Shown: piece by piece, positions 3,288 through 63,991 of the stretch
Layout of the letters: each line of letters begins with the position of its first letter
Numbering within the stretch: the first letter of the stretch is position 1
IMG/VR virus record: IMGVR_UViG_3300020205_005279
Span: 25,051 to 89,050 of that record
Origin: a virus
Direction: 5' to 3' (one strand)
DNA length: 64,000 nucleotides
Notes under the pieces: model-generated
What the model was told of the DNA's origin: nothing
The model's input: the letters and a program-made list of their open reading frames with translations, nothing else
Database searches by the model: none
Made by a program: the position numbers and the translations under genes

Positions 3288-3384
3288 TGATTAGTAGTAT
3301 TATATCACGGCCTTCGCCTCATGTCAAGGGTGGGCGAAGCGCTGGCGCTCTGGTGCACCGTAGCTTTTTCACTCTTACTTTTTA

Positions 3385-3398
3385 CTAAAGTACTTTAG
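3385..3398. promoter_or_regulatory. AGTACT-centred perfect palindrome (operator candidate)
   Basis: CTAAAGTACTTTAG is a perfect 14-base palindrome in the divergent intergenic region between the nucleotide kinase (minus) and the 3476 gene (plus). Similar AGTACT-centred palindromes precede the DNA polymerase and the 60582 gene. Binding by a phage or host regulator is inferred. Confidence 0.4.
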
Positions 3399-3435
3399 CT
3401 CAGTTGTAAAACTAACTATAACTAACAACTACGGA

Positions 3436-10624: not shown

Positions 10625-10645
10625 GTTCTAAGCGCTCCTGAATTG

Positions 10646-13600
10646 TTAAAAGAGTTGAATTGAAATACTTGAGTAAGTGTTCCCAGTCCCGAGCTGGTTA
10701 AACTTAGTTTCTAGTGGATCGGGAATTGTCACGGTCTCACCGGCTGCATTTACAGACGTAGAGGCCTGATCAAAAATTTCTGCTTTTGTCCAGTTTTGAT
10801 ACTCCTTATTAGCAGAGTCGTATTTAGTAGACAAAAGACCAACAATAAAGTTTGGCGCAATATTTCGTGCCCGGAAATAAACTGCGATATCATGAACATC
10901 ATTAATAATGTTTTTGACAGATTGTTTTGAAAGAGCGTTGCCTTCTAGGCTAAATCTTCTAAGTGGTGGAGTTAAATTAGCTCCTGTTGCAACGCCCGTA
11001 ATGTTTTTGAGGGTCCCAGATTGATAGGTTGTGAGCAGATTATTGTTTAGGTAAACAAATCTTAATGCGCGACAATTAATAAACAAGGGTATAGTACCTG
11101 TTGCCCTGGAACTTTGCAAATAAACTTGGTCGAGGACCGCATGGTTATTAAAGAACGAGGCGATGTTTTGACCCGCTCGCCGGAACTTTAGTGCCCCAGC
11201 GCTAACCGACACCGGGGCATTAACATAGATAAATTGGTTGCCTCGATCAATTTGTGTTACATGGGCAATTTCTGTAGACCCAGCAAATACAAGATCTCCG
11301 ACCATTACCTGAGAGTTAATTTGAAAACCTCCAGGATTGCTTTGGTAAAGTTTTTCCGAACTCTCACTCGAGGTGTTATTATTGTTTCTCGATGTCCAAG
11401 TTATTGCAGGAGTTGTTTCTTCAACAGATCCATTAACAAGCGGGGCAATAAGTCTTCCTCTGTCTGCTATCGAGACCCAGTTCGTGGGGTATCTTGAGGA
11501 AAGAGTTCCATCAAGGTTGACATAACTAAGAACCACATTATTGGACAACGTAGTAAAATTAGGTAACAACGATCCACCCACACCAGTGCCATTAGAAGGG
11601 CCATAAATCAACCCTACCCGACTCGTGTTTATAGATCCCAGTGCAGAAAGATCTCTAAATCTGCAGTTATGGAACCAAGTATTGAAATTAACTCCGGCAG
11701 TGTTGTTAGTACTGTAAATTGTGGGAAATTTACCTGTGAAGTAAGAATCGCCTACGTAAAAAGTAGAGATTCTTGGAAGGTTTTTTAAATCATCTTGTCT
11801 GAATTCTAGATCTCGCGTTGAACTATTAAAAAGGTAGTGTAGGTATAAAGCTTGCAGATTGCTGTATGAGGTGGCGGTGGCTTCGGCAACAAAGTTTGTA
11901 GGTAGGATATATTGCCTTCCTTCAGAGGTAAGATATCCTTCCCAGTTATTAGCACCAAAGTTAGCGATGGATAGACTTGGAGCTCCGGCAATAGAAAAAG
12001 GTTTTCCGTACCATCCTGAATACCAGGCATCAATCCTTGTCAGTTGTGAAGCTTGTAAAACATCAGTAGAAGTTTCAGTACCCGCTCCAACTGACATATT
12101 ATATCCAACTTTATTAAAAGTTTGAGCAACTCCACAATAAGTACAATTTACACTACCGAGTTTATTCCAGGTTAGGTTGTTACCAGAAGCGATTCTGAAG
12201 GCAATGTCGCGGTAATAGATGCCAAGGTATTGCGTTTCAGCCAACATTCCGCTCCAGGCCTCAGCAGCAGTTCCTGTAGTAACAAAACTGTATTTAGGCA
12301 AACCATCTATCTGTGTTGATGGCAAACTAACTCCCACCTCAGCATCGGTGGTGCAAATGCCACCCCACCAACCACCACTGCTGTCACCGTTATTGATATC
12401 AAACCCAGAAAATTTAAATTGCCCAATGAATTGCCGTTTATTACCAGCACTGAGTGCTGTGGACCAAGTTGTAGTATTTCCTAGGTACCTGATCGATCCA
12501 CTAACATTTCCAAGATGACCTCCTAAACTAAGTGACATTACTGCACTGCTATTTCTTAGTTTAGGAATCAAACCAAAAAGCACTCCTGGACTACTACCTG
12601 AGCGGCTAGAAATAAGCGTTTTAAGATTGGGGAATATGCTGGAAAAGTCCGGATTGGCAAGTCTAATTGTAGATCCTAAGTTTAACTCCTCTAATAGGGT
12701 AAAAGGCCTAAAGCCGTTGGCTACGTCAATTGTTGGAAGAGTGCCTCCGTTAATTGAGATGTTTCTCTGGTTTTTATACAACGCCCCGGCAGAATCCTGG
12801 ACGGTATTGAGTGTTCCGTCGTAAGCAGTAATAGGTCCCGAGCCAGTCCAGCCGCTATACCCAAGCACCTGGGTAAGTGTGATTAGAGGTCTACCACCAC
12901 CCGTACTGGCCCCAGTAACCCCCGCTGGTGGCTCTTGCCAATCAAAAAAGGAAACAATGCCATTGGCCCAAAACAAATTATTTGCAATATTAAGTTTTTT
13001 AAGAGTGCCGTGAAGGGTTTTTAGCCATACAGGAATGGTAGATAGACCATTACTGGATATATCAAGTTCCTCAAGCTGGTTAAATCCAACCAACCCAATA
13101 TCCTTACCGGCTTGTTCTGTGAGCCCAAGACCGGACAATTGTGCCGAGGTAACTGCACCTGGATCGAGATAGATGTAAAGCAGACTATCAACGCCATTGC
13201 AAATTGTCCCCGTAGTACTAATACTAATATTTACTGTATTAATAGCCCCAGCAGAATTTATTGTTTCGGTTCTAGCAGTTTGTAAGTCCGAAAATCTTTT
13301 CAGTTCCCAACCATATACAAACGCAGAAGAACTTGCAGTAGCATTTTTACGTGAGAAAGAAAGACTTGCCCCATTATAAATTCTTACCGGGAGGATAAGT
13401 GGAGAGTTTTTAGTAGTATAGCATTCCAAATTTACCACTGAGGGTGTGGAGTTGGCCGATGTACGCATGTATGTTGGAATCTTTAGAGTCTCGGTTGGTG
13501 ACTCTATAATCGAACCCCTCTCTACGAGAAGTTTAGGAGCCAACCGCAACTCATAGACGTGTGAGCGGCGCCTAATTCTAAAAAGACCGGGGTACGATGC

Positions 13601-26884: not shown

Positions 26885-28813
26885 TTACATAAAGTACGGA
26901 GCGAAGGAGGCCCAATATCCAGCTTTTTTACGATCCACCACAACGCACTCATTGTGAATAACTTTGCGATTTAGTCTGTAGGTTTTTTTATAAAGCTCGA
27001 GAAGTTTCTCTACCATTTCGCAGTTTACGTCATCGACTCTAATCGATCCCTCAATTGTGGCCAGGGCCTGCTCCAGTTCTGTTTTAACAAAGTTGTCTTC
27101 TACGTCAATGTACGCAACTTTCTTAATCTCCTCTATAAGTCGCCTTGTGCCAAACGCAATTTCTCCTGGCGAGGTATACTCATCAAGGCGAATTTTAGCA
27201 ACTGAGGCCTCTGAGAGTCCTGTATCCGCAATAATCCGCTCATATCCAACATCGTCGAGCGGTCCGTCAAACTTCGCCGCAATAAGCTGAGAAATTTTAT
27301 TCTTCTTGGTTTTGTCGGTAAGGTCGTTGTCTTCGTCAAATTCAGAGAAGTCAAAGAGAGTGAGAAGGTCTGACTGATCGGCTCCAAAGGCACCCATTGC
27401 TCCATTGAAACTATCGGCCATTTGCTCTGTGGTTTTTGGTTCGGACATTGGAGCCGCACCACCTGCCGCGCCTGGTGCTCCACCCATCATCGCGCTCATG
27501 TCCACTTTTGCCAGAGACGGAATCTCAAGTTTATCACGCACCCAATCAAGATCTTTGACCTCATAACCAACTGCTTGGAGTTGGGTGAGCATTTGAACAA
27601 TTTTGATGGGATCTTCGCGTTGCTCTAGGTCGTCAAAGTTGCGACGAAGTCTGGGCACTGGGGCCCCGGGGTAGTTGAGTTCTACAATCCAGCGAATAAG
27701 CGTAGAGTTAATCGTCTCGTCTAACTCCTCTGAGAAGGCTTTGGCTTTGCGCATGCGCACGGAATCGGAAACCTGATCGCGAGCATAAGATCCTACGTTG
27801 CCAGTTTCTTGCCCTACTGTATTCTCTCCATTTATAATAAAACTAATCTGCTGGTCAACATACTCGATAAGTTTTTCATATACTTCCGAACGTCCTTGAC
27901 TCTCAAGCCACTCAATCTCCATCTCGTTGGGTATGACAATCGCGGTCTCTTGGCCCAAGCGCTGAAGCGCTGTAAATAGTGAATCAACCTCCTCATCAGG
28001 AGTGCCGAGAGAGAACTTACCCACAGCCGTAGGAGTTGTATGCTTATCTGCATACTGCAACCAAAAAGACAAAAGAGTTCTTCTAAATTCTACCAAACTG
28101 TATAAATGACGGCCTAACCCTGTGCCGTATGGGTCCATAAAATTACTATAGGCCCAGTGGCGGTGGATGACCGCAGAGCGGAGGGGCAGGGTGATTCCCT
28201 CTACGGGCGAACTTACAGTCATCAAACGTGGGCCAATTGTTCCGTCTTCGTTGAGAACAAAAATAAACCGACGTGGGTCACGAATTTTAATTTCCGAGGG
28301 AACGATGTAATTTCCCTGCCTCATCCAACAAATCTCACCGATGCTAATGCCAAGGATCAGAGATTCGCATAATCCTCTTATAAATGTGTCAAACGCTGAA
28401 TTTGAAGACACAAGCATTTCTTTGCCATAGGCCTGCCGGGTATTAGTGCCCATGCGATAGAGTACTTGGCGGACAAACTCAGCAACTTCTTCATCGCGGT
28501 CAGATGCACTTGCCGGATCAACCTGCCATTTTCGTTGTATAATTTCTCCCGTAAGTTTTTCCCATGCAGAAATAACTTGGCTGTCGTTAAACAACCGCAT
28601 GTATTTCTCAATTGCTCTAGGGCCACCACCACCCTCCTCGATGAGAATATCATCTCTGCGTGGGAGAATAAGTCCTGATGCTAAATACGAAGTTCCAGTA
28701 TAGGCGTATGGATCGCCTTTGTAACCTGCTAAGCTGCCTTGGCCTACTCCAAGGCTAAAGTAGCGATCAAAGTGCCCAGTTTTTGGTTTTGCACCAGGAC
28801 GTTTCTCGGCCAT
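26885..28813 (-). CDS. portal protein, Mu gp29 (DUF935) type
   Basis: A 642-residue protein. The core (about 90-420) follows the Mu gp29 portal pattern: an N-terminal helical wing, the block HRHWAYSNFMDPYGTGLGRHLY, then a helix (FRRTLLSFWLQYADKHTTP), GKF, a stretch ending AIVIPNEMEIEWLES, and a long helix starting YEKLIEYVDQQIS. It is longer than Mu gp29 because of a C-terminal extension with a methionine/glycine/alanine linker (near 445-465) and two helical segments. The portal forms the dodecameric DNA gate of the capsid. No terminase gene is adjacent. Confidence 0.85.
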   Translation of the reverse strand: MAEKRPGAKPKTGHFDRYFSLGVGQGSLAGYKGDPYAYTGTSYLASGLILPRRDDILIEEGGGGPRAIEKYMRLFNDSQVISAWEKLTGEIIQRKWQVDPASASDRDEEVAEFVRQVLYRMGTNTRQAYGKEMLVSSNSAFDTFIRGLCESLILGISIGEICWMRQGNYIVPSEIKIRDPRRFIFVLNEDGTIGPRLMTVSSPVEGITLPLRSAVIHRHWAYSNFMDPYGTGLGRHLYSLVEFRRTLLSFWLQYADKHTTPTAVGKFSLGTPDEEVDSLFTALQRLGQETAIVIPNEMEIEWLESQGRSEVYEKLIEYVDQQISFIINGENTVGQETGNVGSYARDQVSDSVRMRKAKAFSEELDETINSTLIRWIVELNYPGAPVPRLRRNFDDLEQREDPIKIVQMLTQLQAVGYEVKDLDWVRDKLEIPSLAKVDMSAMMGGAPGAAGGAAPMSEPKTTEQMADSFNGAMGAFGADQSDLLTLFDFSEFDEDNDLTDKTKKNKISQLIAAKFDGPLDDVGYERIIADTGLSEASVAKIRLDEYTSPGEIAFGTRRLIEEIKKVAYIDVEDNFVKTELEQALATIEGSIRVDDVNCEMVEKLLELYKKTYRLNRKVIHNECVVVDRKKAGYWASFAPYFM

Positions 28814-50233: not shown

Positions 50234-51220
50234 ATGATGAATCTTGATCAAGTAAGAATTATTGATCCAATTCTTACGCAACTCGCCCAAGGTTACAAAA
50301 ACTCAGAAGGCGTAGCTACATTCTTCGCTCCTTCGGTATCTATGAATACCAGAGCAGGCCGCACGTTAGTCTTCGGCAAAGAAGCCTTTGCTGCTCAGAG
50401 CTTCCTAAGAAGCCCTGGAACTAACATTCAGAAAGTCCAAAATCAATTCGGAACTCGTTCATTCGCCCTCCGTCAGGAAGCAATTAGCTGGGAGATTGCC
50501 GAAGAGATCGCGGCTGAGGCCAAAAATGGCGCTGCTCAGATTGACCTTCGTCAATTTGCTGCTAAAGACGCCGCTAATCGCCTCATGCAGTCCTGGGAAG
50601 TCCAAGTTGCTGAAAAAGTAACCGACGACACTCAGTACGAAACCGGTAACGTTCTTGACCTCTCCGTCTATAACGGAGGCGCAGACCAATTCAACTCGCC
50701 AACCGCCGACGTTGAAGTTCTGATGGACGATGCCAAAGAACAAGTCCGCTCGCAGATTGGTATCTATCCCAACAAGATGGTGATTTCACCTGACGCCTTT
50801 AACGCCCTCAAGCGTAACAAGCGTATTCGTGATTTCATGCAGCGTGGCGTTTTGGTAGATGAGAAGACCTTGGCTCAAATCTTTGGTCTCGATGAGATTC
50901 GCGTTGCTCGTAGACTCAAACTCAACCAGGCAACTGGGGATCTTGAGAACATCTACAATAACATCGCAGTTCTTTTCTACCATCCTTCAGGTTCCACAGA
51001 CGGCTTTATGCCTGCTTTGGATGCCAACTATGGTAATCCTGCCTTTGCCTACACTTATACTCTTACCGGGTATCCTATCGCTACTCCTGAGCGCTTCAAC
51101 ATTGAGCGCAGAGTATTCAGCGGAGACATTCTTGTTGAGCGTAGCTTTGAGCTCGTCGGCATGGGTGAGAACGGAAAGTGTGGTTCAGGGTTTATCTTCA
51201 ACAACCCAGTTGCTGTTTGA
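50234..51220 (+). CDS. major capsid protein
   Basis: A 328-residue protein of the HK97-fold capsid type found after protease/scaffold and decoration genes. Features include FFAPSVSMNTRAGRTLVFGK, SWEIAEEIAAEAKNGA, NKMVISPDAFNALKRNKRI and the beta end ERFNIERRVFSGDILVERSF. An AAAGGAG ribosome binding site precedes ATGATG. A strong terminator follows 24 bases after the stop. Position, length and expression signals support the assignment even though no single motif is diagnostic. Confidence 0.88.
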   Translation: MMNLDQVRIIDPILTQLAQGYKNSEGVATFFAPSVSMNTRAGRTLVFGKEAFAAQSFLRSPGTNIQKVQNQFGTRSFALRQEAISWEIAEEIAAEAKNGAAQIDLRQFAAKDAANRLMQSWEVQVAEKVTDDTQYETGNVLDLSVYNGGADQFNSPTADVEVLMDDAKEQVRSQIGIYPNKMVISPDAFNALKRNKRIRDFMQRGVLVDEKTLAQIFGLDEIRVARRLKLNQATGDLENIYNNIAVLFYHPSGSTDGFMPALDANYGNPAFAYTYTLTGYPIATPERFNIERRVFSGDILVERSFELVGMGENGKCGSGFIFNNPVAV

Positions 51221-52796: not shown

Positions 52797-53732
52797 GTGC
52801 TTCTTGAAATAGAAAATCAACTCCATAGGAGAGTGCATAAGACGCTCGGTCAGAGCGCCGTGGTTCTTCGCCTTGCAGAAGAACTAGATGAGTCGGGAAG
52901 AGTATCTGAACAAACAATGATTATCGTTAGTTATGCTAACGAGAATACTAATAATCCAAACAAAGGAGCCTATATTCCCACAATTAGAAATAGATCTCTT
53001 AGCTACTCGATTACAATCGTTCAAAAACAAGTCCAGCGAGAAGGGCATAGTTTCGCGCTTCCGCTTATGGATCTGATTTATGACGCCGTTTCTGGATGGG
53101 TGCCAGAAATACCCGGATTAGAATTTCAGACAGGATTTGAGCCAGGCCCCGGGCGTTTTGTCCAAGTCACCGAGGCCTCTCAATTTATCTATGAAATGAA
53201 CTTTACCATTGAGGTATTGCTTTCAGACGGAAGGTTCTATTCTCAACCTTGTGCCGCTTTTGATTCTATTTCTATCGAAGATTTTTTACCACAGCGTAGT
53301 TGTCTTCTTACGGAAGACAGAAAGAACACGGGCTTGGCAGTTTGGAGAAGAAAAGTAGACGTAGATACGACCGAGGAGTATGTTGTTGAAGACTTACGAT
53401 GCAAAAGAGAAATTAGTGATGCGCTTATCTTAATCTGCTCAGAAGAACTTAATGGCGACGCCACTTACCAATTTATCCCCAGAGATGCATTATCATTCAA
53501 TTCCACGGGAGATAGGGTAATAGACCAGTCAAAAACAACCTCTGGAACACTGCAAAAATGTTGGAAGTGTTACAAAGACCAAACAGAACCTTACCCACCT
53601 TGGTTTAAGTTAAACATAGACGCCGGATTATGGAGAAATATAGCAGGAACTGTTCCAAACTCCAACCCTCTTACTTCTTCTCGTCAAGACTTTTATCTTT
53701 CTACAAATTCAGCATACGGTGAATCAACATGA
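52797..53732 (+). CDS. tail terminator or neck protein candidate (Mu gp37-like)
   Basis: A 311-residue protein from a GTG start. The N-terminal 150 residues fit the Mu gp37/DUF1834 pattern: LEIENQLHRRVHKTLGQSAV, SYSITIVQKQVQREGHSFAL, LMDLIYDAVSGWVPEIPGLE and a strand FIYEMNFTIEVLL. The C-terminal half contains four cysteines and is extra to the family. The stop overlaps the Dps ATG (ATGA). Confidence 0.6.
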   Translation: MLLEIENQLHRRVHKTLGQSAVVLRLAEELDESGRVSEQTMIIVSYANENTNNPNKGAYIPTIRNRSLSYSITIVQKQVQREGHSFALPLMDLIYDAVSGWVPEIPGLEFQTGFEPGPGRFVQVTEASQFIYEMNFTIEVLLSDGRFYSQPCAAFDSISIEDFLPQRSCLLTEDRKNTGLAVWRRKVDVDTTEEYVVEDLRCKREISDALILICSEELNGDATYQFIPRDALSFNSTGDRVIDQSKTTSGTLQKCWKCYKDQTEPYPPWFKLNIDAGLWRNIAGTVPNSNPLTSSRQDFYLSTNSAYGEST

Positions 53733-54142
53733 ACCCCATATACACTCAAGTACTAGAGCTTCAACATAATCTTATCGAGGCGGCTCATTTAGCGCACTGG
53801 AATGTCACTGGCATTGACTTCTATCACTTCCACCTGCTTTTTGAGAAGGTATATGAGACTTTTGCGGAAAAGTTTGATCCTATGGCCGAGCAGATTAGAA
53901 GTTTGGGAATTGAAATCCCGGCATCTATCATGAACTCAGTACCTGAGTTAGAATGGACCACACCGGCAGAACTATGCAAAGAACTGTGTAATTTGGTCAA
54001 GGAGCTGGACGAGGGATTAAAGAGAGCCCGTGAAGAAGCCGAAGGTGATAAAAACTATGGTCTCATTGCTGCCATTGAGGACATGTTGATGAGTTGCAAT
54101 GCCACCTGCTACCTTCTAGAATCCGTTAATGCTGAAATCTGA
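53729..54142 (+). CDS. Dps/ferritin-like protein
   Basis: A 137-residue four-helix protein. All five Dps ferroxidase positions are present with exact family spacing: H23 in AHWN, H35, E39 (Asp in E. coli Dps), D50 and E54 in FDPMAEQIRSLG. It is shorter at both ends than bacterial Dps and lacks a Lys-rich tail, so DNA binding is uncertain. Dps proteins oxidise and store iron and detoxify peroxide. It is translationally coupled (ATGA) to the neck gene and is the last gene of the morphogenesis operon, so late expression or packaging in the virion is possible. Confidence 0.88.
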   Translation: MNPIYTQVLELQHNLIEAAHLAHWNVTGIDFYHFHLLFEKVYETFAEKFDPMAEQIRSLGIEIPASIMNSVPELEWTTPAELCKELCNLVKELDEGLKRAREEAEGDKNYGLIAAIEDMLMSCNATCYLLESVNAEI

Positions 54143-54205: not shown

Positions 54206-54574
54206 CTACCAGGAAATACAGACGTTCTGTACTCCTCTAGATAGAGGTGCTAGATCGCTAAAGGATTTAGCAGATAGGTCTATGACTCGCCCGCCGACAA
54301 AAGGTCCGCGGTCCGTAATCTTGACTTTAGTGCTTTGGCCGTTAGCAGTCACCGTAACAACCGTTCCAAATGGTAGCCACTTATGCGCTGCTTGATTCGA
54401 CCAGGTGTCAAACCGCTTACCTGAAGCAGTAATTCCACCCTGATATCCGTCTCCTAGTCCGTAATAACTTGCTCCTCCGCACTGTTTCCTTGATGATGCA
54501 TTTACTGCCTCACCAGGCAGAAAAGAAATGGTGGCGGCGGCAAGGGCGGCCAAGGTGATAATAGTTTTTTTCAT
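54206..54574 (-). CDS. secreted RlpA-like double-psi beta-barrel protein
   Basis: I place the start at MKKTIITLAA because GGAG lies 5 bases upstream; the 7 extra residues from 54595 have no binding site. The product has 122 residues: a signal peptide (about 1-24), then GGASYYGLGDGYQGG, a TASG segment, AAHKWLPFGT (62-71), TDRGPF (87-92) and IDLS (98-101). This is the RlpA/barwin-like fold seen in septal lytic transglycosylases. The likely role is peptidoglycan modification or binding from the periplasmic side during lysis. It stands apart from the next minus gene by about 157 bases. Confidence 0.85.
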   Translation of the reverse strand: MKKTIITLAALAAATISFLPGEAVNASSRKQCGGASYYGLGDGYQGGITASGKRFDTWSNQAAHKWLPFGTVVTVTANGQSTKVKITDRGPFVGGRVIDLSAKSFSDLAPLSRGVQNVCISW

Positions 54575-54714
54575 AAGCTCCGAGATAAAGGACATAGCAT
54601 TCCAGGGTCATCTTTGCAATCTGCAATTGTTTATTGATGAGATAGAGGTGCTATGACAGTCGCCCGGCAAGCATAAAACTAGGTTTCAGGGGCTTGACAA
54701 GCGACTGAATTTAA

Positions 54715-56204: not shown

Positions 56205-56370
56205 CGTTAAAGGTGAAGTATTCGTGAATTTCAGCCATCACAGCCTCGTCAATGTGCTGCATAATAGCACTCGGCAAGGGGTTCTCTACGTGCTTGTGAG
56301 CACGTCCCCAGCCCCGACGCACACCCGCCTCAATTGCCATTTCTAAAATCACAAGAGTTTTAGGTTTCAT
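56191..56370 (-). CDS. small hypothetical protein next to DNA polymerase
   Basis: A 59-residue protein read directly from the sequence: MKPKTLVILEMAIEAGVRRG at the start, then WGRAHKHVENPLP and a helical acidic end. Its ATG overlaps the polymerase stop (ATGA), the arrangement seen down this whole operon, which supports it as real. No family is known. Confidence 0.6.
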   Translation of the reverse strand: MKPKTLVILEMAIEAGVRRGWGRAHKHVENPLPSAIMQHIDEAVMAEIHEYFTFNDETL

Positions 56371-59066
56371 TTTGTTTCTCCGAACATAGAATTAAACACT
56401 GGAACTAGGTCTTGGATGGTGACTGATTTGCCATCACCTTCGGTTTTTTGTTGTGAGACGGTCTTAGTATTAGAGTCGGCTGACTTTCTAAAGATTTTGT
56501 CAATTTCAATAGATGAGAGCCAGGCATTAGCCACAGGAAGTTCGTACATCTCATAATTATACCTCATCCAGGCCCAACACCACACGTGAGCAACCTGGAA
56601 AAGAGTAGCAACTTTCTTGGCTTGGGCCTCAGGGCAGAGATACAAGATGCTATCATGGACACTCATGCAAAACTCTGCATCTAGCTCGTACTCCTTAATC
56701 AACCACTCCATAGCGGTCATAAAGGCGTGGAGCATAGCACTTCCGGTGGATTGAATACACCAGTTATTACGCATTGTCCAGAAGTCAGTTCCTACAGTCG
56801 AAGGACGGAAAGAGGTGGACATCTTAGTCCCGCTCAGAGGATTGATAGGGCAGGGTAGGTTTGCCACCCGGGCCATTTCATTATAGGCGTATGAGTCGGA
56901 TCCGCCGATGAGCGTTTGTGAGAGCCTCGAGGCCTTCTCGCCTTTCTTGATTTTAATGAGTTTTTTGCCCATGACCATGGCATCTTTCATCGGGATGGTT
57001 TTATTTCCCTTGCGAATAGTATTGGCCAGGGTCTTCGCCCCACACCCATAGAGCATACCATAGTTACATCCTTTGGCCACAGCTCTAGAGATCCCAATGG
57101 CACTGGCGGTCATGGAGTGCATGTCCGTGCCATCGTCTTTAGACCCTGCAAGGATCGAGTGGGAAAACTGTGTACTCCCGGCAACTTTGTGATAGGAGTC
57201 GGCAAAAATCGAAGCAACCACGGCCTCTTGGGCGTCAAAGTCCGACTCGACAAATACATAACCCTCGGGGGCTTGGACACGGGTCTTGATTTCGCTGCCA
57301 ATTTTATCGTACTTGGGGTCGGGGACAGTAAGCCAGAGGTTTTCTCCTGCTCGATTGGTAGAGGTGTTGTGGGGTACTGAGGCCGGAACAATTAGATTGA
57401 ATTGTTTGCCATCAGGGGTTTTGACCGGCTCAATGTTTTGTTCTCGCACCCGTGAGCGAACAGAGGTCCAGTAGGCGACATTGATTGCAAGGCCGATGAG
57501 TTCCCGGGCTTCTGTAAGGTCAGAGGTGAGAACACCAGACTCAAAATCTTCTACGTAATCTTTAGTAAGAACATTGCCTACATTGACCCCTTCTCCGTCT
57601 TTGTGAGGAAGGCGCAAATACAAACCACTATCCTGGTCCATATAACACCAGCCTTTGTCCGTGAAGAAGTGGATGGGCTGATCGTCCCACTTGAGGCGAA
57701 GGAGCAGGTGAGAGAGACGGTTCTTTGTAGAAATTCCCTCCACGGTAGGTTTGCCATCGACAAGGTCTTTTGCAGAAACACTCCTCACCCACTTGGGGAC
57801 CCCGTACCACTTTGAGCTAGGTTTACCGGCCTTGGTGAGTTTAAAGTTCGCCTCCCAGTCAAGTTGTGAGAGCCAAGGATCGGCCTTAATATCCTCATCG
57901 GTAATTTCGCCCTCGTTCCAAGACTCATAGAGCTCCTTAGCCATTTGGCTTAGAGTTTTTTCTTGTTTGGCAATGGAAGAATGCCAGGCCTTTTCACACG
58001 ACTCAAACCACCCCATCCAGTCCGAAACGACCGGGAGCTTTGCTCCGGCAACACCGAAGTGCCCCGCCAATGTGGTCAGTGAGGGGTTATTTTGGAGATA
58101 CTTTAGTACGAGAATAGAGTACAACTCAAAGGTAATTTTGACGTCATTGACAGCATATTGAATAAGATTATCGCGGTCAAGGACAAAGTCTTCCATTGAG
58201 GTAGCATCCACAAAAGTATTTCTAATCTTCTTATCTTCCTGCTCGAGGGGGATGGCCGGACGGCAATGGAAGTTGTAACAATCAATGAGGTTATTCATTG
58301 CGCCTTGATCGGCCCAAATCGGATCGGCTTTGTACGAGGATTTTTTGGATTGCTTTTGCACATACCACCATCGCTGCCCCGATGCTAGCCCGGAGACATT
58401 GATATGCGCGCTCATCGTATCAAACCACGAGTTGGTTTTTCCGAGGACGTAGGCTTCCTGCGTCCGAGGGCGGTCATAGGCTACGTTATGGGCGATAAAG
58501 AGGCCATCCTTTTGCCCCAATGGCACGAGCATCGGCTCATAGGGGATTTTTGAATTTACAAAACTTGGATGCATCCAGATATAATAAGCCTTATTCGTCA
58601 CTGCAGTGGCAAGGATTGGGTGGGCAAAGTCACTTCCCTGCACAAAAGTTTCGCAGTCAAAAACCCCGATGGTTTCTTCAATGCCATCGACAACTTCCGG
58701 AGAACCGTCAAATGGATACTTGACCCAGCCTGCGTACATAAAGTATTTGGTTTTGTCAGGGGGTTCTGGGATTTCTACGTAGGCAAAATCTTTCATCAAC
58801 TTTACACGATCTTTGCAGACTTCTTTGGATATGACATCAAAGTGAGTTTTGATCGAGTTGGCTTTAAGCTCCGGAAGAGCAAAGTCGTCAATGAAAAAGT
58901 TTGGGGGATTTTTTATCGGAAACTCCACGCCAAAATTCTCCATCTCTTCTTTGATTGAGGAGATGGCTTTTTTCTCTGGTGTTTTGACAACAACCCCCTC
59001 GCCGAACACTTTGGCATTCATGGAGTCGGAAAGGACTACATACCCGAGGGAGTTGAGCTTTGACAT
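56367..59066 (-). CDS. family A DNA polymerase, mitochondrial gamma type
   Basis: An 899-residue replicative polymerase. Exonuclease: Exo I D137/E139 (VFDCET), Exo II H193-N194 and D198 (IAHNVAYDR), Exo III Y304/D308 (YAVNDV). Polymerase: motif A D609 (FVESDFDAQE), motif B R661-K665-Y669 (GISRAVAKGCNYG), motif C H804-D805-S806. The blocks GTDMHSMTASAIGISR and HDSILYLCPEA, and the C-terminal SSIEIDKIFRK, follow human POLG closely rather than E. coli Pol I or T7 polymerase. A spacer of about 280 residues separates the two domains. Unusually, the motif C glutamate is replaced by serine. An AGTACT palindrome lies 13 bases before the ATG. Confidence 0.95.
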   Translation of the reverse strand: MSKLNSLGYVVLSDSMNAKVFGEGVVVKTPEKKAISSIKEEMENFGVEFPIKNPPNFFIDDFALPELKANSIKTHFDVISKEVCKDRVKLMKDFAYVEIPEPPDKTKYFMYAGWVKYPFDGSPEVVDGIEETIGVFDCETFVQGSDFAHPILATAVTNKAYYIWMHPSFVNSKIPYEPMLVPLGQKDGLFIAHNVAYDRPRTQEAYVLGKTNSWFDTMSAHINVSGLASGQRWWYVQKQSKKSSYKADPIWADQGAMNNLIDCYNFHCRPAIPLEQEDKKIRNTFVDATSMEDFVLDRDNLIQYAVNDVKITFELYSILVLKYLQNNPSLTTLAGHFGVAGAKLPVVSDWMGWFESCEKAWHSSIAKQEKTLSQMAKELYESWNEGEITDEDIKADPWLSQLDWEANFKLTKAGKPSSKWYGVPKWVRSVSAKDLVDGKPTVEGISTKNRLSHLLLRLKWDDQPIHFFTDKGWCYMDQDSGLYLRLPHKDGEGVNVGNVLTKDYVEDFESGVLTSDLTEARELIGLAINVAYWTSVRSRVREQNIEPVKTPDGKQFNLIVPASVPHNTSTNRAGENLWLTVPDPKYDKIGSEIKTRVQAPEGYVFVESDFDAQEAVVASIFADSYHKVAGSTQFSHSILAGSKDDGTDMHSMTASAIGISRAVAKGCNYGMLYGCGAKTLANTIRKGNKTIPMKDAMVMGKKLIKIKKGEKASRLSQTLIGGSDSYAYNEMARVANLPCPINPLSGTKMSTSFRPSTVGTDFWTMRNNWCIQSTGSAMLHAFMTAMEWLIKEYELDAEFCMSVHDSILYLCPEAQAKKVATLFQVAHVWCWAWMRYNYEMYELPVANAWLSSIEIDKIFRKSADSNTKTVSQQKTEGDGKSVTIQDLVPVFNSMFGETK

Positions 59067-59369: not shown

Positions 59370-60017
59370 TTAGTAGTAGATAAAAAACTCTTCCCGATCT
59401 GTGTAATATACCCCCACTCCTTCAAAATTGGTGGCGTCTATGATGCGAAGGTTCTGGCGGAAATAAGGATAGCCATAGTGACCAAAAAAATACTCAAAAC
59501 CAGGACAAATATGATCTTCTAGGCTGTCTTGTCTGAACCACGGATACCCGGTGCCTGATAGGACGCGATTGCGTGTTTCAGAGGTGTAGTTGGAATCGTA
59601 GTAGGCATGAGCGCAACGGTATTTGTGGCCATGGGACTCAAACTCGAGTGTCAATGGCGAGGTATTTAACCAACTCAGGAGGGATAAACGTTGTTCCAGT
59701 TCCAAGTCCTTGAGACATTGCAAAGTATGTCTTACTTCTTTTTGTTTAATTTGTGCCTTGGGCAATACGAGGTTCTTTAGTATGTAGTTTTCGTTATTGC
59801 CGATGATGAGGGTTGCCATATCCCCATCCACCAACTCTTTGACCTTAAGAAGCATGTTAATTGGCGAACAACGCTTAGAGCGCCGGAAGAATGGCTTGTG
59901 GTGGATAATGTCTCCCAGGAAAATGTAGTGGTAGCCCTCTGACCGCCCCAGGATCTTCTCAAGTGTTTCTACACGGCCGTGAAGATCTCCAATTATACAA
60001 TACTTTTTTTCAGACAT
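59370..60017 (-). CDS. PPP-family metallophosphatase
   Basis: I start at MSEKKYCIIG, which overlaps the upstream stop by 8 bases; the longer frame to 60113 only reads through the neighbour. 215 residues. The metal-binding motifs of the serine/threonine and diadenosine-tetraphosphate phosphatases are recognisable: GDLHGR (10-15), GDIIHH (35-40, usually GDxVDR), GNNEN (73-77, usually GNHE) and later histidines. The substitutions in the second and third motifs are shared with divergent phage phosphatases. The substrate could be phosphoprotein, nucleotide or RNA ends. Confidence 0.8.
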   Translation of the reverse strand: MSEKKYCIIGDLHGRVETLEKILGRSEGYHYIFLGDIIHHKPFFRRSKRCSPINMLLKVKELVDGDMATLIIGNNENYILKNLVLPKAQIKQKEVRHTLQCLKDLELEQRLSLLSWLNTSPLTLEFESHGHKYRCAHAYYDSNYTSETRNRVLSGTGYPWFRQDSLEDHICPGFEYFFGHYGYPYFRQNLRIIDATNFEGVGVYYTDREEFFIYY

Positions 60018-60582
60018 GTTTCCCAAGTAGTTCGATATAAGCCGCACCATGAATAAAACTCTGCGGCGCCCACCATGGTGGCGGAGTTCCTCCGGCTCTG
60101 TCCCATGAGGCAAATTTCCATTTCTCGTGGTTGTAGTAACTGCGGTAAGCAGTAACAGGATCCGCCTCGTTTTTGCAATAGGTAGGCATTGCTTGGGCGG
60201 GCACAGTATATCCTAAATGTGGGTAGATACTTTGTTCCAGTAAATCACTAACTACATTGTCACTTACTAAACCCACTAAACTGGTGAGCCCGGCGTGCTT
60301 TTTACCAAATCTTTGCTCAAATTCAACGCAGAGATACCTGGTCATTGAGAACAACCACATAAAATTCCCCGATGACTCCTTTACCCACTTGGTACATGGG
60401 TGGTTTTTATAAGCCCGGGTTGAGTAGTAGTTTCCGTCTTTTTTCTTAGCAGGAGGATAGCCATAGTGGGCCAGAGCCACGCTCATCATTTGGAGATGCT
60501 CGATAATCATCTTGTTAACGTGCTTATCGCAGTGATACGCAGCACATTTTTTATAATCGAAATCTAGATAGAAAATGTTCAC
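60010..60582 (-). CDS. conserved phage protein of unknown function
   Basis: A 190-residue protein. The N-terminus MNIFYLDFDYKKCAAYHCDK continues HVNKMIIEHLQMMS, a signature (LD-D-x-x-x-CA-x-x-H-x-DKHVxKM) that I know from many cyanophage and other phage proteins without an assigned function. Conserved His/Cys/Asp suggest a metal or nucleic-acid-binding site, and later HPCTKWVKES and WKFASWDRAGGTPPPWW look conserved too. It is the first gene of the operon with the phosphatase and follows a palindrome at 60601. Confidence 0.7.
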   Translation of the reverse strand: MNIFYLDFDYKKCAAYHCDKHVNKMIIEHLQMMSVALAHYGYPPAKKKDGNYYSTRAYKNHPCTKWVKESSGNFMWLFSMTRYLCVEFEQRFGKKHAGLTSLVGLVSDNVVSDLLEQSIYPHLGYTVPAQAMPTYCKNEADPVTAYRSYYNHEKWKFASWDRAGGTPPPWWAPQSFIHGAAYIELLGKHV

Positions 60583-60827: not shown

Positions 60828-60899
60828 TGGGCGATACTGGACTCGAACCAGTGACTTACCACTTGTAAGGAGGCCACTCTACCGCTGAGTTAATCGCCC
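60828..60899 (-). tRNA. tRNA-Val (UAC)
   Basis: Acceptor GGGCGAT/ATCGCCC, D stem ACTC/GAGT, T arm ACTGG-TTCGAGT-CCAGT. Anticodon loop CTTACAA; one U-U mismatch in the anticodon stem. No encoded CCA. Confidence 0.9.
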
Positions 60900-60908
60900 G
60901 GGGGATAA

Positions 60909-60916
60909 CTTTAAAC
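60909..60916 (-). promoter_or_regulatory. GTTTAAAG element between tRNA-Leu and tRNA-Val
   Basis: GTTTAAAG read on the minus strand, ahead of tRNA-Val and the 60803 gene. No good -10 box follows; weak. Confidence 0.3.
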
Positions 60917-60921
60917 TTGAA

Positions 60922-61002
60922 TGCACGGAAGAGGACTTGAACCTCCATGCTGTTAAGCGGTAGCTTCTAAGGCTACTGTGTCTACCTTTCCACCACCCGT
61001 GC
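60922..61002 (-). tRNA. tRNA-Leu (UAG)
   Basis: Class II tRNA with long variable arm. Anticodon arm GTAGC-CTTAGAA-GCTAC, T arm GGAGG-TTCAAGT-CCTCT. Its 5' end overlaps the last 21 bases of the HNH endonuclease gene. Confidence 0.92.
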
Positions 61003-61455
61003 TAGAGGTGTTCTATTAGAGAACGTGGGCGTTTGAGAGTGGCAATTAGGGCATAAAAGCCTTAAATTGTCAACAGTGTTATTATAACATTGACCATCTA
61101 TATGGTCAACTTGTAGTCTTAAAAATTTACCGTTCCACTCGGAAGAAATGCCGCACTGTTCGCATTGTTCCCCGCTCTCTTGAACAAGAAGCCTATAAAT
61201 AACGCTTCTTTTACAGTTTTTACCTTTAGTTAGAACGTACTCTTGTAATGTAGGCCATTTGTTTCTCCCACCAAAATTTCTTATTTTGGCAGTATAATCA
61301 GGTCTATAGTTCGGAATCCACTTAGAAGTTCTGCGTCTAAGAGTGTCTGGTCGGCAATTTAACTCTAGACATAATTCTGTAGGAGTTTTGCTTCCAGATA
61401 GCAGACTATTTATTATATAGTCTTTTTTGTTGTCAATGTCCTTTCGCACTCTCAT
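60982..61455 (-). CDS. HNH homing-type endonuclease
   Basis: A 157-residue protein. The N-terminal half (about 10-90) is basic and helix-turn-helix-like (TELCLELNCRPDTLRRRTSK). The C-terminal half is an HNH nuclease with a zinc-like pair C98-C101, VDHIDG (116-121), N130 and CPNCH (135-139). It lies inside the tRNA array, and its last seven codons are the first 21 bases of tRNA-Leu. Free-standing HNH genes of this kind spread by cutting cognate sites in related phages. An inverted repeat lies 5 bases ahead of the start. Confidence 0.92.
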   Translation of the reverse strand: MRVRKDIDNKKDYIINSLLSGSKTPTELCLELNCRPDTLRRRTSKWIPNYRPDYTAKIRNFGGRNKWPTLQEYVLTKGKNCKRSVIYRLLVQESGEQCEQCGISSEWNGKFLRLQVDHIDGQCYNNTVDNLRLLCPNCHSQTPTFSNRTPLARVVER

Positions 61456-61460
61456 AATGG

Positions 61461-61476
61461 TAGACTTTATAGTCTA
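61461..61476. promoter_or_regulatory. inverted repeat before HNH gene
   Basis: TAGACT-ttat-AGTCTA six bases upstream of the HNH ATG; could be an operator or could sequester the start. Confidence 0.35.
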
Positions 61477-61512
61477 TAAACTATTTAGTTACCAATTCCG
61501 CCATTTGCGCAT

Positions 61513-61587
61513 ATGCTCCTTGTGAGGATCGAACTCACCTCACACGAATTATGAGTTCGTTGCATTCACCAGATTGCTAAAAGAGCA
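61513..61587 (-). tRNA. tRNA with CAU anticodon (Met or Ile2), copy 1
   Basis: Acceptor TGCTCTT/AGGAGCA (one G-U), anticodon arm ACGAA-CTCATAA-TTCGT, T arm TGAGG/CCTCA. Elongator Met versus lysidine-modified Ile cannot be told from sequence alone. Confidence 0.85.
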
Positions 61588-61589
61588 TA

Positions 61590-61763
61590 ACGATGGACTT
61601 ATCCGTATGCTATGTGGGCGCTACACCCAGTATACTGACAGTTTCCAACGGAGTAGGACGCAGTACCACCGCGAACATCCAAAGGGGGCTGATTCCAAAC
61701 TATGTGGTTTCAGTATATCTGAACCGTTTGGCACCTTTGCCTGGAACGTCTCAAGTTCCTAAT
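61590..61763 (-). ncRNA. candidate structured leader RNA of the tRNA array
   Basis: No gene is convincing here on either strand. Read on the minus strand, it contains a chain of hairpins: GGAAC/GTTCC, GGCA/TGCC, an extended arm CCAAAC/GTTTGG enclosing GGTTCAG/CTGAAACC, GGATG/CGTCC, and TGGGTG/CGCCCA with a 3-base loop. It sits between a TATAAT box and the first tRNA, so it would be transcribed as a 5' leader of about 175 bases. Confidence 0.5.
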
Positions 61764-61769
61764 ACAACT

Positions 61770-61791
61770 ATTATACTCCCTAAATGGCCTA
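61770..61791 (-). promoter_or_regulatory. sigma70-like promoter of the tRNA array segment
   Basis: GGAGTATAATAG on the minus strand with a perfect TATAAT (61770-61775); a TACATT lies 16 bases upstream as a poor -35. It could drive the leader RNA and downstream tRNAs. Confidence 0.5.
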
Positions 61792-61827
61792 AATGTACAC
61801 AATGTCTTTAGAGGACTTTTTGCCCTC

Positions 61828-62271
61828 TCATCGGCCCCGGGTGTTTCCTGGGATCTGCGGTGCGGGGTGGTGGGTTGGTGAGAAAAACTGACTAATGGGC
61901 CTTGCTTCGCCTATAATAAACCCGGCCGCTAATATAACCCCTGCAACAAGCCATCTCAATCGCGATAGTTCTCCGATGCGCTTGTCGTGGTCCTTGAGCA
62001 CCTCCTCAATCTCCTTAATTGAGTCGGCGTTTTGTTTTTTCATTTCATCAAGGAGCTTAATTATAGCAACGTCGGATTGTATGGCTTGTTCTAAACGTTC
62101 GTCGTGGCGGACGAGTATTTTTGAGATGTTTTGATTTGCTTCCGATATTTTATCTACAGCCAACTCAAGCTTTAAAAGCATTTCTTTTGTGAGTTCTTCA
62201 TAGACCATGAGTTTTTCTCCCAACACGGCCACTTGTATGTCCGGGCTTTGGGGGGTAAAAGGATTAGTCAT
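61828..62271 (-). CDS. coiled-coil membrane protein (XhlA/holin-accessory-like)
   Basis: A 147-residue protein: long amphipathic coiled coil (about 20-100, for example VDKISEANQNISKILVRHDE), then one transmembrane helix (about 106-121, RWLVAGVILAAGFIIGE) and a short Pro/His tail. This layout is that of XhlA-type hemolysin/holin accessory proteins. A lysis-related role at the inner membrane is inferred. It lies inside the tRNA array between tRNA-CAU copy 1 with its leader, and tRNA-Thr. Confidence 0.6.
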   Translation of the reverse strand: MTNPFTPQSPDIQVAVLGEKLMVYEELTKEMLLKLELAVDKISEANQNISKILVRHDERLEQAIQSDVAIIKLLDEMKKQNADSIKEIEEVLKDHDKRIGELSRLRWLVAGVILAAGFIIGEARPISQFFSPTHHPAPQIPGNTRGR

Positions 62272-62312
62272 TTGGTAATTAGTAATGCTCTTTATGGATG
62301 TCTTTCAACTAA

Positions 62313-62386
62313 AGCCTCCTGTCGGACTCGAACCGACGACCTACGGTTTACAAAACCGTTGCTCTATCCAGCTGAGCTAAGGAGGC
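62313..62386 (-). tRNA. tRNA-Thr (UGU)
   Basis: Acceptor GCCTCCT/AGGAGGC, D stem GCTC/GAGC, anticodon arm ACGGT-TTTGTAA-ACCGT, T arm GTCGG/CCGAC. Confidence 0.95.
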
Positions 62387-62388
62387 GG

Positions 62389-62461
62389 GGTGTACGAGCG
62401 GACTTGAACCGCCATAAACCAGTTCCACAAACTGGTGCATTAACCATTATGCTACGTACAC
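62389..62461 (-). tRNA. tRNA-His (GUG)
   Basis: Acceptor GTGTACG/CGTACAC, anticodon arm CCAGT-TTGTGGA-ACTGG, discriminator C as usual for His. G-1 is not encoded. Confidence 0.93.
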
Positions 62462-62462
62462 A

Positions 62463-62534
62463 TGGCAGTAATGAGATTTGAACTCATAATTCCGTCGTTA
62501 TGAATGACGGGCTTTACCATTAAGCTATACTGCC
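62463..62534 (-). tRNA. tRNA with CAU anticodon (Met or Ile2), copy 2
   Basis: Acceptor GGCAGTA/TACTGCC, D stem GCTT/AAGC, anticodon loop TTCATAA with four paired stem bases plus an A-C mismatch, T arm ATGAG/CTCAT. Differs throughout from copy 1, so the two probably read different codons. Confidence 0.88.
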
Positions 62535-62537
62535 GAG

Positions 62538-62627
62538 CGGAAGTGGTTGGATTTGAACCAACGGTGCCGGGATAACCGACACGGAATCTTAGCAGGATTC
62601 TGCGATAAACCACTCTGCCACACTTCC
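62538..62627 (-). tRNA. tRNA-Ser (GCU)
   Basis: Class II tRNA: acceptor GGAAGTG/CACTTCC, anticodon arm GAATC-CTGCTAA-GATTC, long variable arm, T arm GTTGG/CCAAC, discriminator G. Confidence 0.95.
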
Positions 62628-62630
62628 ATT

Positions 62631-62644
62631 TTGCCTTTCGGCAA
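62631..62644. repeat. tRNA spacer hairpin, copy 1
   Basis: TTGCC-TTTC-GGCAA between tRNA-Ser and tRNA-Arg. Related hairpins occupy the next spacers at 62723-62736, 62817-62831 and 62909-62922. Confidence 0.7.
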
Positions 62645-62645
62645 G

Positions 62646-62719
62646 CGCTCTCTGAGAGATTTGAACTCCCGACACCCTGGTCCGTAGCCAGGTGCTCTAG
62701 TCCGCTGAGCTAAGAGAGC
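62646..62719 (-). tRNA. tRNA-Arg (ACG)
   Basis: Acceptor GCTCTCT/AGAGAGC, anticodon arm CCTGG-CTACGGA-CCAGG, T arm GGGAG/CTCTC. The ACG anticodon would need A34 deamination by host TadA. Confidence 0.94.
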
Positions 62720-62722
62720 AAT

Positions 62723-62736
62723 TTGCCCGAAGGCAA
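62723..62736. repeat. tRNA spacer hairpin, copy 2
   Basis: TTGCC-CGAA-GGCAA between tRNA-Arg and tRNA-Glu. Confidence 0.7.
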
Positions 62737-62808
62737 TAGTCCATACGGGATTTGAACCCGTGCTGCCACCTTGAAAGGGTGGTGACCTGCCCGCTAGTCG
62801 AATGGACC
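62737..62808 (-). tRNA. tRNA-Glu (UUC)
   Basis: Acceptor GGTCCAT/ATGGACT (first pair G-U), D stem GAC/GTC as in bacterial Glu, anticodon arm CCACC-CTTTCAA-GGTGG, T arm ACGGG/CCCGT. Confidence 0.92.
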
Positions 62809-62816
62809 GTTATGGT

Positions 62817-62831
62817 TTGCCCTTTGGGCAA
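62817..62831. repeat. tRNA spacer hairpin, copy 3
   Basis: TTGCCC-TTT-GGGCAA between tRNA-Glu and tRNA-Gln. Confidence 0.7.
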
Positions 62832-62902
62832 TTCCGAGACTAGGACTCGAACCTAGGATAGCGGGACCAAAACCCGCTGCCTTACCACTTGGCTATCTCG
62901 GA
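62832..62902 (-). tRNA. tRNA-Gln (UUG)
   Basis: Acceptor TCCGAGA/TCTCGGA, anticodon arm GCGGG-TTTTGGT-CCCGC, T arm CTAGG/CCTAG. Confidence 0.94.
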
Positions 62903-62908
62903 AAAAAT

Positions 62909-62922
62909 GCCTCTGATGAGGC
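62909..62922. repeat. tRNA spacer hairpin, copy 4 (different stem sequence)
   Basis: GCCTC-TGAT-GAGGC between tRNA-Gln and tRNA-Ile; same size as the other spacer hairpins. Confidence 0.6.
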
Positions 62923-62925
62923 GAT

Positions 62926-62996
62926 TGGAACGACGAGACTTGAACTCGTGACCGCACGGTTATCAGCCGTGTGCTCTACCAACTGAGCTACGTTCC
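62926..62996 (-). tRNA. tRNA-Ile (GAU)
   Basis: Acceptor GGAACG/CGTTCC, D stem GCTC/GAGC, anticodon arm CACGG-CTGATAA-CCGTG, T arm ACGAG/CTCGT. Confidence 0.94.
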
Positions 62997-63001
62997 AGAG
63001 G

Positions 63002-63074
63002 TGGGAACAGTCGGAATCGAACCGACAACACCACGATCTTCAATCGTGTGCTCTACCGTTGGAGCTATGTTCCC
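63002..63074 (-). tRNA. tRNA-Phe (GAA)
   Basis: Acceptor GGGAACA/TGTTCCC, anticodon arm CACGA-TTGAAGA-TCGTG, T arm GTCGG/CCGAC. Confidence 0.94.
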
Positions 63075-63077
63075 TGG

Positions 63078-63150
<73 letters not shown>

Positions 63151-63153
63151 ATA

Positions 63154-63245
63154 TACGCCGTGCCGGAATCGAACCGACTATCTTACGGATTACGTGGTAA
63201 TCCAGCTCCATTGTCTGGGTGTCCTTACCAATAGACTACCGGCGC
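63154..63245 (-). tRNA. tRNA-like element with long variable arm, anticodon unclear
   Basis: Acceptor GCGCCGG/ACGGCGT (six pairs, one wobble), D stem GTCT/GGAC, T arm GTCGG-TTCGATT-CCGGC. The anticodon arm is CCAG/CTGG with a nine-base loop ACAATGGAG and no U at the usual position 33. A seven-pair variable arm GGATTAC/GTAATCC follows. A degenerate tRNA-Ser (GGA) is one reading; the alternative arm GGATT-ACCACGT-AATCC would show CAC. Confidence 0.55.
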
Positions 63246-63457
63246 GGGCGAGGGTATCCACCTACAATGTGCGAGTTACTTGGCATTTTGTTTAAATCCA
63301 GACAACTTAGTTGAACTGAATCTAAACTCCATTATCTAAGCACTTTCGCCATTCTATGATGTGGTTTAGGGGACCCTTCGTTTAAGCCCCCGTTCCTTGG
63401 AGGACCCTTGGTGGCCACCGGCACTCCAGATTATCAGCTCTGGCGCAAAGTGGCAAG
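63246..63457 (-). ncRNA. possible structured non-coding stretch between tRNA-like element and tRNA-Pro
   Basis: No convincing gene. Minus-strand hairpins include CCAGA/TCTGG, the palindrome GGTGGCCACC (63410-63419) and GGGG/CCCC. An eight-base direct repeat GGACCCTT occurs at 63371 and 63402 (plus strand). It may be part of a larger RNA with 63530-63913 that has tRNA-Pro embedded, but that is only an inference. Confidence 0.35.
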
Positions 63458-63529
63458 TCGGGGTGGGAGGGATCGAACCTCCGACATCCTGCTCCCAAAG
63501 CAGGCGCGCTACCGCTGCGCTACACCCCG
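63458..63529 (-). tRNA. tRNA-Pro (UGG)
   Basis: Acceptor CGGGGTG/CACCCCG, D stem GCGC/GCGC, anticodon arm CCTGC-TTTGGGA-GCAGG, T arm GGAGG/CCTCC. Confidence 0.95.
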
Positions 63530-63913
63530 AGATGCCCCGATTTTACACGTGAAACGTCTCAAGGACGGACAGAGGTGGGGGCTTGCTTTCAGCAGGGCCT
63601 GCATATTGGCCGGTAAGAGCGTTCGCTCCAGCAACACCAATGGCAAAACAGCCCTCAAGAAAGCACCACATATTAACGCCTGTGTTCGTGGCCGTGGCGG
63701 GAACTTAACGACGTATTCCATACGACTCCGGAGTCTAGAACGGAGAGTTTGTGGTGAGGCAACAGTTAAAGACTGCTGACAACCTTGACTCTATTAAAGC
63801 CAAGGGCCTCTCACAATATGCCAGGTTTCAATTTTTATCACCCAGGATTATGGAAACCTGTAAGACGGCATCCTGGGATTTTGGGTTTAGGAGTTAAGAA
63901 CTCCGCACCCCAC
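63530..63913 (-). ncRNA. candidate structured RNA with H-type pseudoknot
   Basis: A 384-base stretch without a supportable gene. Read on the minus strand, it begins with hairpin GGAGTT-CTT-AACTCC (63890-63904). Next is an H-type pseudoknot: stem 1 CCCAGGAT (63870-63877) with ATCCTGGG (63841-63848), stem 2 CAGGTTTC (63853-63860) with GAAACCTG (63822-63829), all eight pairs perfect in both. Then GAGGC/GCCTC encloses two hairpins (CCTTG/CAAGG and CAGCAGT/ACTGTTG). Further on are CGTAT-GGA-ATACG, the palindrome GACTCCGGAGTC (63724-63735), GAGC/GCTC and GGCC/GGCC hairpins. It lies between tRNA-Asn and tRNA-Pro, both on the same strand, so it is probably co-transcribed. Confidence 0.6.
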
Positions 63914-63983
63914 TGGCCCGGCAGGGATCGAACCTGCGACAACTTGATTAACAGTCAAGCGTTCTACCGCTGAACTACAGGCC
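63914..63983 (-). tRNA. tRNA-Asn (GUU)
   Basis: D stem GTTC/GAAC, anticodon arm CTTGA-CTGTTAA-TCAAG, T arm GCAGG/CCTGC. The acceptor stem has five good pairs and two weak ones. Confidence 0.92.
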
Positions 63984-63991
63984 ATTGAATA

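Follow-up and report, generated by a model that had tools for sequence, protein, structure and literature searches.

An intact gene for a gamma-type DNA polymerase in an S-TIM5-like phage, with serine in place of glutamate in motif C

Background

Mitochondrial DNA is copied by DNA polymerase gamma (POLG). The bacteria searched here yielded no such enzyme, whereas some cyanophages possess one, so that each phage POLG helps to trace the origin of the enzyme. POLG genes of such cyanophages have been published since 2011 (Chan 2011 and Sabehi 2012, as cited in PMC4928673 and PMC7156551), in agreement with the initial annotation of the sequence analyzed here, which had named a polymerase of this kind as a trait of S-TIM5-like cyanophages; the present gene therefore adds a good example to a known kind and is not a discovery. 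The Mic1 paper proposed a shared ancestry with mitochondrial POLG, using neighbor joining, and already remarked on a Tyr/Phe difference among isolate phages at the position of human Y951 (PMC7156551). With regard to the catalytic carboxylates, human POLG has been described as having an essential triad that includes Glu1136 of motif C, and the E1136K mutation as pathogenic (PMC8238196); the polymerase of Thermus phage Tt72 naturally contains Ser at this site, and its S616A mutant keeps 76% of the activity, compared with 4% for D384A and D615A (PMC9324360). What is new here is the sequence itself and its relatives on other contigs, the motif C serine found throughout the S-TIM5-type clade, and the observation that this clade is not, among the phage lineages sampled, the nearest to mitochondria.

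Integrity and family assignment of the polymerase gene

The stretch of DNA analyzed (hereafter the window, 64,000 nucleotides) spans 25051-89050 of a contig of 89 kb in IMG/VR. Its minus strand carries, at 56367-59066, an uninterrupted open reading frame for a protein of 899 amino acids (915 codons from stop to stop). The protein contains the mitochondrial-type 3'-5' exonuclease domain DNApol_Exo (PF18136; residues 61-320, 58107-58886 on the minus strand; E = 4.2e-52, 177.5 bits with a curated cut-off of 26.7), which had no match in 14 control genomes, and the family A palm/fingers domain DNA_pol_A (PF00476; residues 587-824, 56595-57308 on the minus strand; E = 6.6e-14). It matches PHROG 22619 with an E-value of 0 and PHROG 17 weakly. 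Among solved structures, the best match by sequence is yeast Mip1 (E = 1.1e-119), a similarity that far exceeds chance, followed by mammalian POLG (about 1e-90), with no Pol I scoring better than 4e-4. An HMM built from phage POLGs alone scored Mip1 with 752 bits, mouse POLG with 715 bits and E. coli Pol I with 29 bits. The AlphaFold2 model, generated from an alignment of 34 sequences comprising the window polymerase and our collection (pLDDT 82, pTM 0.83), is predicted to have the POLG fold: its top 36 PDB matches are all Mip1/POLG chains (TMq 0.71-0.85), with T7 and Pol I following at 0.32-0.40, and the best viral structure match is G0KYA6, over the full length (TMq 0.84). Purifying selection on the gene is strong in comparison with four relatives (dN 0.11-0.21, with saturation at synonymous sites). 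The window gene is confirmed as an intact, conserved DNA polymerase gamma of the POLG/Mip1 type within family A.

A frame of 129 codons on the opposite strand of the gene (58569-58958, plus strand) matches an antisense frame in S-TIM5 and most likely results from conservation of the coding strand opposite.

Active-site motifs and the serine of motif C

The motifs that the initial annotation had singled out as following POLG (Exo I-III, the GTDMHSMTASAIGISR block, motif B RAVAKGCNYGMLYG and the C-terminal SSIEIDKIFRK) are all found in the protein, in column-by-column alignment with Mip1 and mammalian POLG. The residues of a DEDDy proofreader are contributed by Exo I FDCET (D137 and E139; 58650-58658), Exo II HNVAYD (D198; 58473-58490) and Exo III YAVND (Y304 and D308; 58143-58157). 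The polymerase part contains motif A DFDAQE, with catalytic D609 and steric-gate E614 (57225-57242), motif B RAVAKGCNYGMLY, with R661, K665, Y669 and Y673 (57048-57086), the two tyrosines being equivalent to human Y951 and Y955, and motif C HDS, with H804, catalytic D805 and S806 (56649-56657); all these motifs were located on the minus strand by alignment with POLG. The N-terminal exonuclease would remove mispairs through D137, E139, D198, D308 and Y304, and the C-terminal hand would extend the primer by a two-metal mechanism via D609 and D805, with R661, K665, Y669 and Y673 probably handling the incoming dNTP and E614 excluding ribonucleotides. At the Y951 position, Tyr is found in the window polymerase, Mic1 and mitochondria, and Phe in the S-CBWM1-type and A-HIS enzymes. 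F762 of Pol I, Y526 of T7 and Y951 of POLG are the basis for linking Tyr at this position to dideoxynucleotide use; Y669 therefore predicts that the window polymerase would use dideoxynucleotides readily.

Motif C (SVHDSILY in the window), which was not among the motifs named in the initial annotation, has Ser at the position of a Glu that POLG has in common with most family A enzymes (human Glu1136). The window polymerase and all 62 readable S-TIM5-type sequences contain HDS, and all 64 readable S-CBWM1-type sequences contain HDE (an additional row with poor alignment has WDE), as do, in the alignment, A-HIS, Mic1, mitochondria, T7, Syn5 and Pol I. In the S-TIM5-type sequences readable at the respective columns, D137/E139, D609/E614, R661/K665/Y669/Y673 and D805 are invariant. 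The second carboxylate of motif C, absent from the window polymerase, is conserved but not defining for POLG, because active family A enzymes lack it and the published S-TIM5 POLG lacks it too. The idea that HDS is unique to the S-TIM5-type clade was ruled out: the Pol I-like phage enzyme of Pikmin has HDS independently, and the Tt72 polymerase has Ser at the equivalent position (PMC9324360). Given that the Tt72 enzyme naturally carries Ser and is active even with Ala, the replacement of Glu by Ser is unlikely to inactivate the protein, and the phage POLG would be expected to be active. We see an even chance that the S-TIM5-type POLGs are a natural lineage in which the motif C Glu is replaced by Ser throughout, so that catalysis would rely on two carboxylates and not three; if so, they would provide a natural test of the role of Glu1136 in POLG, and their metal use or fidelity may differ. 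The clade-wide change in motif C provides a naturally occurring variant at a position that is altered in human disease. We found no published mention of it in the literature covered, outside of which lies the original S-TIM5 paper, and no biochemistry on polymerases of the S-TIM5-type clade.

Genome context of the window polymerase

About 89 kb of the contig is collinear with S-TIM5: approximately 50 open reading frames have their orthologs there in matching order, on a path that leads from about 133 kb down to 35 kb of that genome. In both phages, the polymerase gene is flanked on one side by a pyrimidine dimer DNA glycosylase-like gene (60010-60582, minus strand, in the window; upstream of the polymerase in S-TIM5 too) together with a phosphoesterase, and on the other side by head genes. 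The major head protein, a lineage marker (50234-51220, plus strand), is 83% identical to its S-TIM5 ortholog, and the portal protein (26885-28813, minus strand) is 60-75% identical in two segments. This collinearity, along with 71% identity of the polymerase to those of S-TIM5, S-TIM61 and S-TIM66, bears out the S-TIM5-like placement proposed initially. The contig stops before the S-TIM5 region with photosynthesis-related genes; judging from the relatives, the host is probably a cyanobacterium. In S-TIM5, an annotated primase and a 5'-3' exonuclease-like gene are located at 141-146 kb, and the corresponding module lies beyond the end of the window contig; by extrapolation from S-TIM5, the partners of the polymerase are probably a primase and a 5'-3' exonuclease encoded by the phage itself.

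The interval of the window that separates the head genes from the polymerase encodes a ferritin/Dps-like protein and a small lytic transglycolase-like protein with a double-psi beta-barrel (53729-54142 and 54206-54595). A cluster of 16 predicted tRNA genes occupies 60828-63984 on the minus strand and includes an odd 92-base predicted tRNA-His with the anticodon ATG (63154-63245).

Phylogeny and the relationship to mitochondrial POLG

The phylogeny of family A polymerases that the initial annotation had suggested as a check was constructed from 461 columns shared with the outgroups T7 gp5, Syn5, E. coli Pol I and Pikmin. All POLGs, phage and mitochondrial, form one group (100/100) apart from these outgroups, and the window polymerase falls inside it, outside T7 and Pol I, pairing with the polymerase of contig L031 and then with S-TIM5/S-TIM54 (100/99). 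The POLG group shows three long branches, namely the S-TIM5 and S-CBWM1 types, A-HIS, and Mic1 with mitochondrial POLG (98/99); Mic1 and the two eukaryotic sequences split off again (100/100) in the tree of 871 columns without outgroup. Eukaryotic POLG is represented in these trees by two sequences only, pieced together from printed alignments. A grouping of the eukaryotes with A-HIS was rejected (p-AU 1.6e-5). The Mic1 POLG (contig L004, 6001-8977) is 39-41% identical to mitochondrial POLG, compared with about 32% to other phages. Of the phage enzymes sampled, that of Mic1 has the closest relationship to mitochondrial POLG (support 98-100), ahead of the S-TIM5 clade, and S-TIM5 was accordingly dropped for Mic1 as the nearest kin.

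The topology with all phages as a single clade had a p-AU of 0.236, so that phage monophyly is not rejected, and a nesting of eukaryotic POLG inside the phages could not be established. The data are compatible with either direction of transfer between phage and mitochondrion, the outgroups being too distant to decide it and the two reconstructed eukaryotic sequences too few to tell donor from recipient. With respect to the viral origin of the mitochondrial enzyme, on which the initial annotation had expected this gene to bear, the family is indeed shared with mitochondria, but the sampled phage lineage nearest to them is that of Mic1, and the transfer may have run either way. Since Mic1 is the sampled phage closest to mitochondria, the donor or recipient should be looked for in its lineage and not in the S-TIM5 type.

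Alternative interpretations

An ordinary Pol I-like or T7-like phage polymerase, with the resemblance to POLG confined to a few motifs, would be consistent with the genuine family A membership of the protein and its weak matches to PF00476 and PHROG 17. The POLG-specific exonuclease domain, the E-values, the fold ranking and the 100/100 split from T7, Syn5, Pol I and Pikmin reduce the probability of this interpretation to a negligible level; assignment to Pol I or T7 is ruled out by sequence, fold and tree, and the same evidence upholds the gamma-type assignment made initially. The motif C serine could also be taken to mean that the activity was lost or redirected, the protein being an exonuclease or an accessory protein in a phage that is replicated by another enzyme. 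The place of Glu1136 in the essential triad, the pathogenicity of E1136K (PMC8238196) and the fixation of the change across the S-TIM5-type clade point in this direction, but all other catalytic residues are invariant where readable, the Tt72 enzyme tolerates even Ala at this site and neither Asp mutation (PMC9324360), and Pikmin has HDS as well. Furthermore, the S-TIM5 annotation showed no other family A polymerase over the portion at about 16.6-158.8 kb; S-TIM5 gp075, which is labelled a polymerase, shows a weak match to a 5'-3' exonuclease domain. We consider such a loss or redirection very unlikely.

A donor role of S-TIM5-type phages, or of their direct ancestors, in the origin of mitochondrial POLG would agree with the shared family and with the proposals of a phage origin in the literature (PMC4928673). 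However, the tree is compatible with more than one root and either direction of transfer, the unrooted split obtained here argues against such donors, and mitochondrial POLG groups with Mic1 rather than with the S-TIM5 clade (98/99 to 100/100), making this scenario highly improbable. The interpretation that we favor, with a probability of about 0.96, is that the window gene encodes the replicative proofreading polymerase of an S-TIM5-like (Aurunvirus-related) cyanophage and is a true member of the POLG branch of family A. Homology, intact motifs, predicted fold, phylogeny, synteny and purifying selection are the observed basis; the polymerase activity, the role as main replicase and the partner proteins are what we infer.

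Other phage POLGs and their insertions

Two alignment-based scans of viral contigs yielded roughly 130 further POLG loci; together with the window, these contigs show that the S-TIM5 and S-CBWM1 types are two large, widespread clades. No POLG was detected in 84,980 bacterial and archaeal genomes, scanned twice with seeding by short peptide patterns that could miss divergent copies, or among plasmids searched with the Mic1 query. No closer phage kin were found for A-HIS2, and only near-identical Mic1 contigs for Mic1. The S-CBWM1-type POLG is also encoded on the very large contigs L138, L140 and L141 (190, 277 and 201 kb), which are possibly jumbo phages.

Some phage POLG genes are interrupted at catalytic motifs by candidate group I introns, located at 7815-8087 of L004 (Mic1; motif A, E = 1.8e-10) and at 9795-10016 and 10935-11141 of L069 (motif A, E = 1.7e-7, and, more weakly, motif B, E = 0.0095), all scoring under the Rfam gathering score; the window polymerase gene is without such an insert. 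Another group I intron of L069 (17700-18013, minus strand) is above the gathering score at 72 bits. Further insertions are present in the POLG genes of L137 (about 10017-10925), L142 (about 7248-7962) and L075 (about 3129-3419); those of L137 and L142 gave no clear Rfam intron match, and that of L142 contains an open HNH-like frame.

Comparison with known polymerases

The closest described enzyme is the S-TIM5 polymerase (PHROG 22619), which shares with the window polymerase 71% identity over 99% of the sequence, the same motifs including HDS and the same genomic neighborhood; the window polymerase nevertheless belongs to a separate lineage within the clade, together with that of contig L031 (79%), and is about 83-86% identical to those of further uncultured contigs. 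The S-CBWM1-type, A-HIS1/2 and Mic1 polymerases have the same two-domain POLG architecture at 31-36% identity but differ in having HDE in motif C; in the comparison that gave 71% for S-TIM5, the identity was 34% for S-CBWM1 and about 30-33% for Mic1 and A-HIS1/2. Yeast Mip1 and mammalian POLG, at 30-32% identity, share the exonuclease and polymerase motifs, the colinear domains and the predicted fold, whereas the mitochondrial enzymes have about 1240 amino acids, compared with 899 in the window, and HDE instead of HDS. The polymerase of Thermus phage vB_Tt72 is not described as a POLG but as a type-A family enzyme with less than 30% identity to most others; like the window polymerase, it contains Ser at the position of E. 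coli Pol I Glu883, and it is active (PMC9324360).
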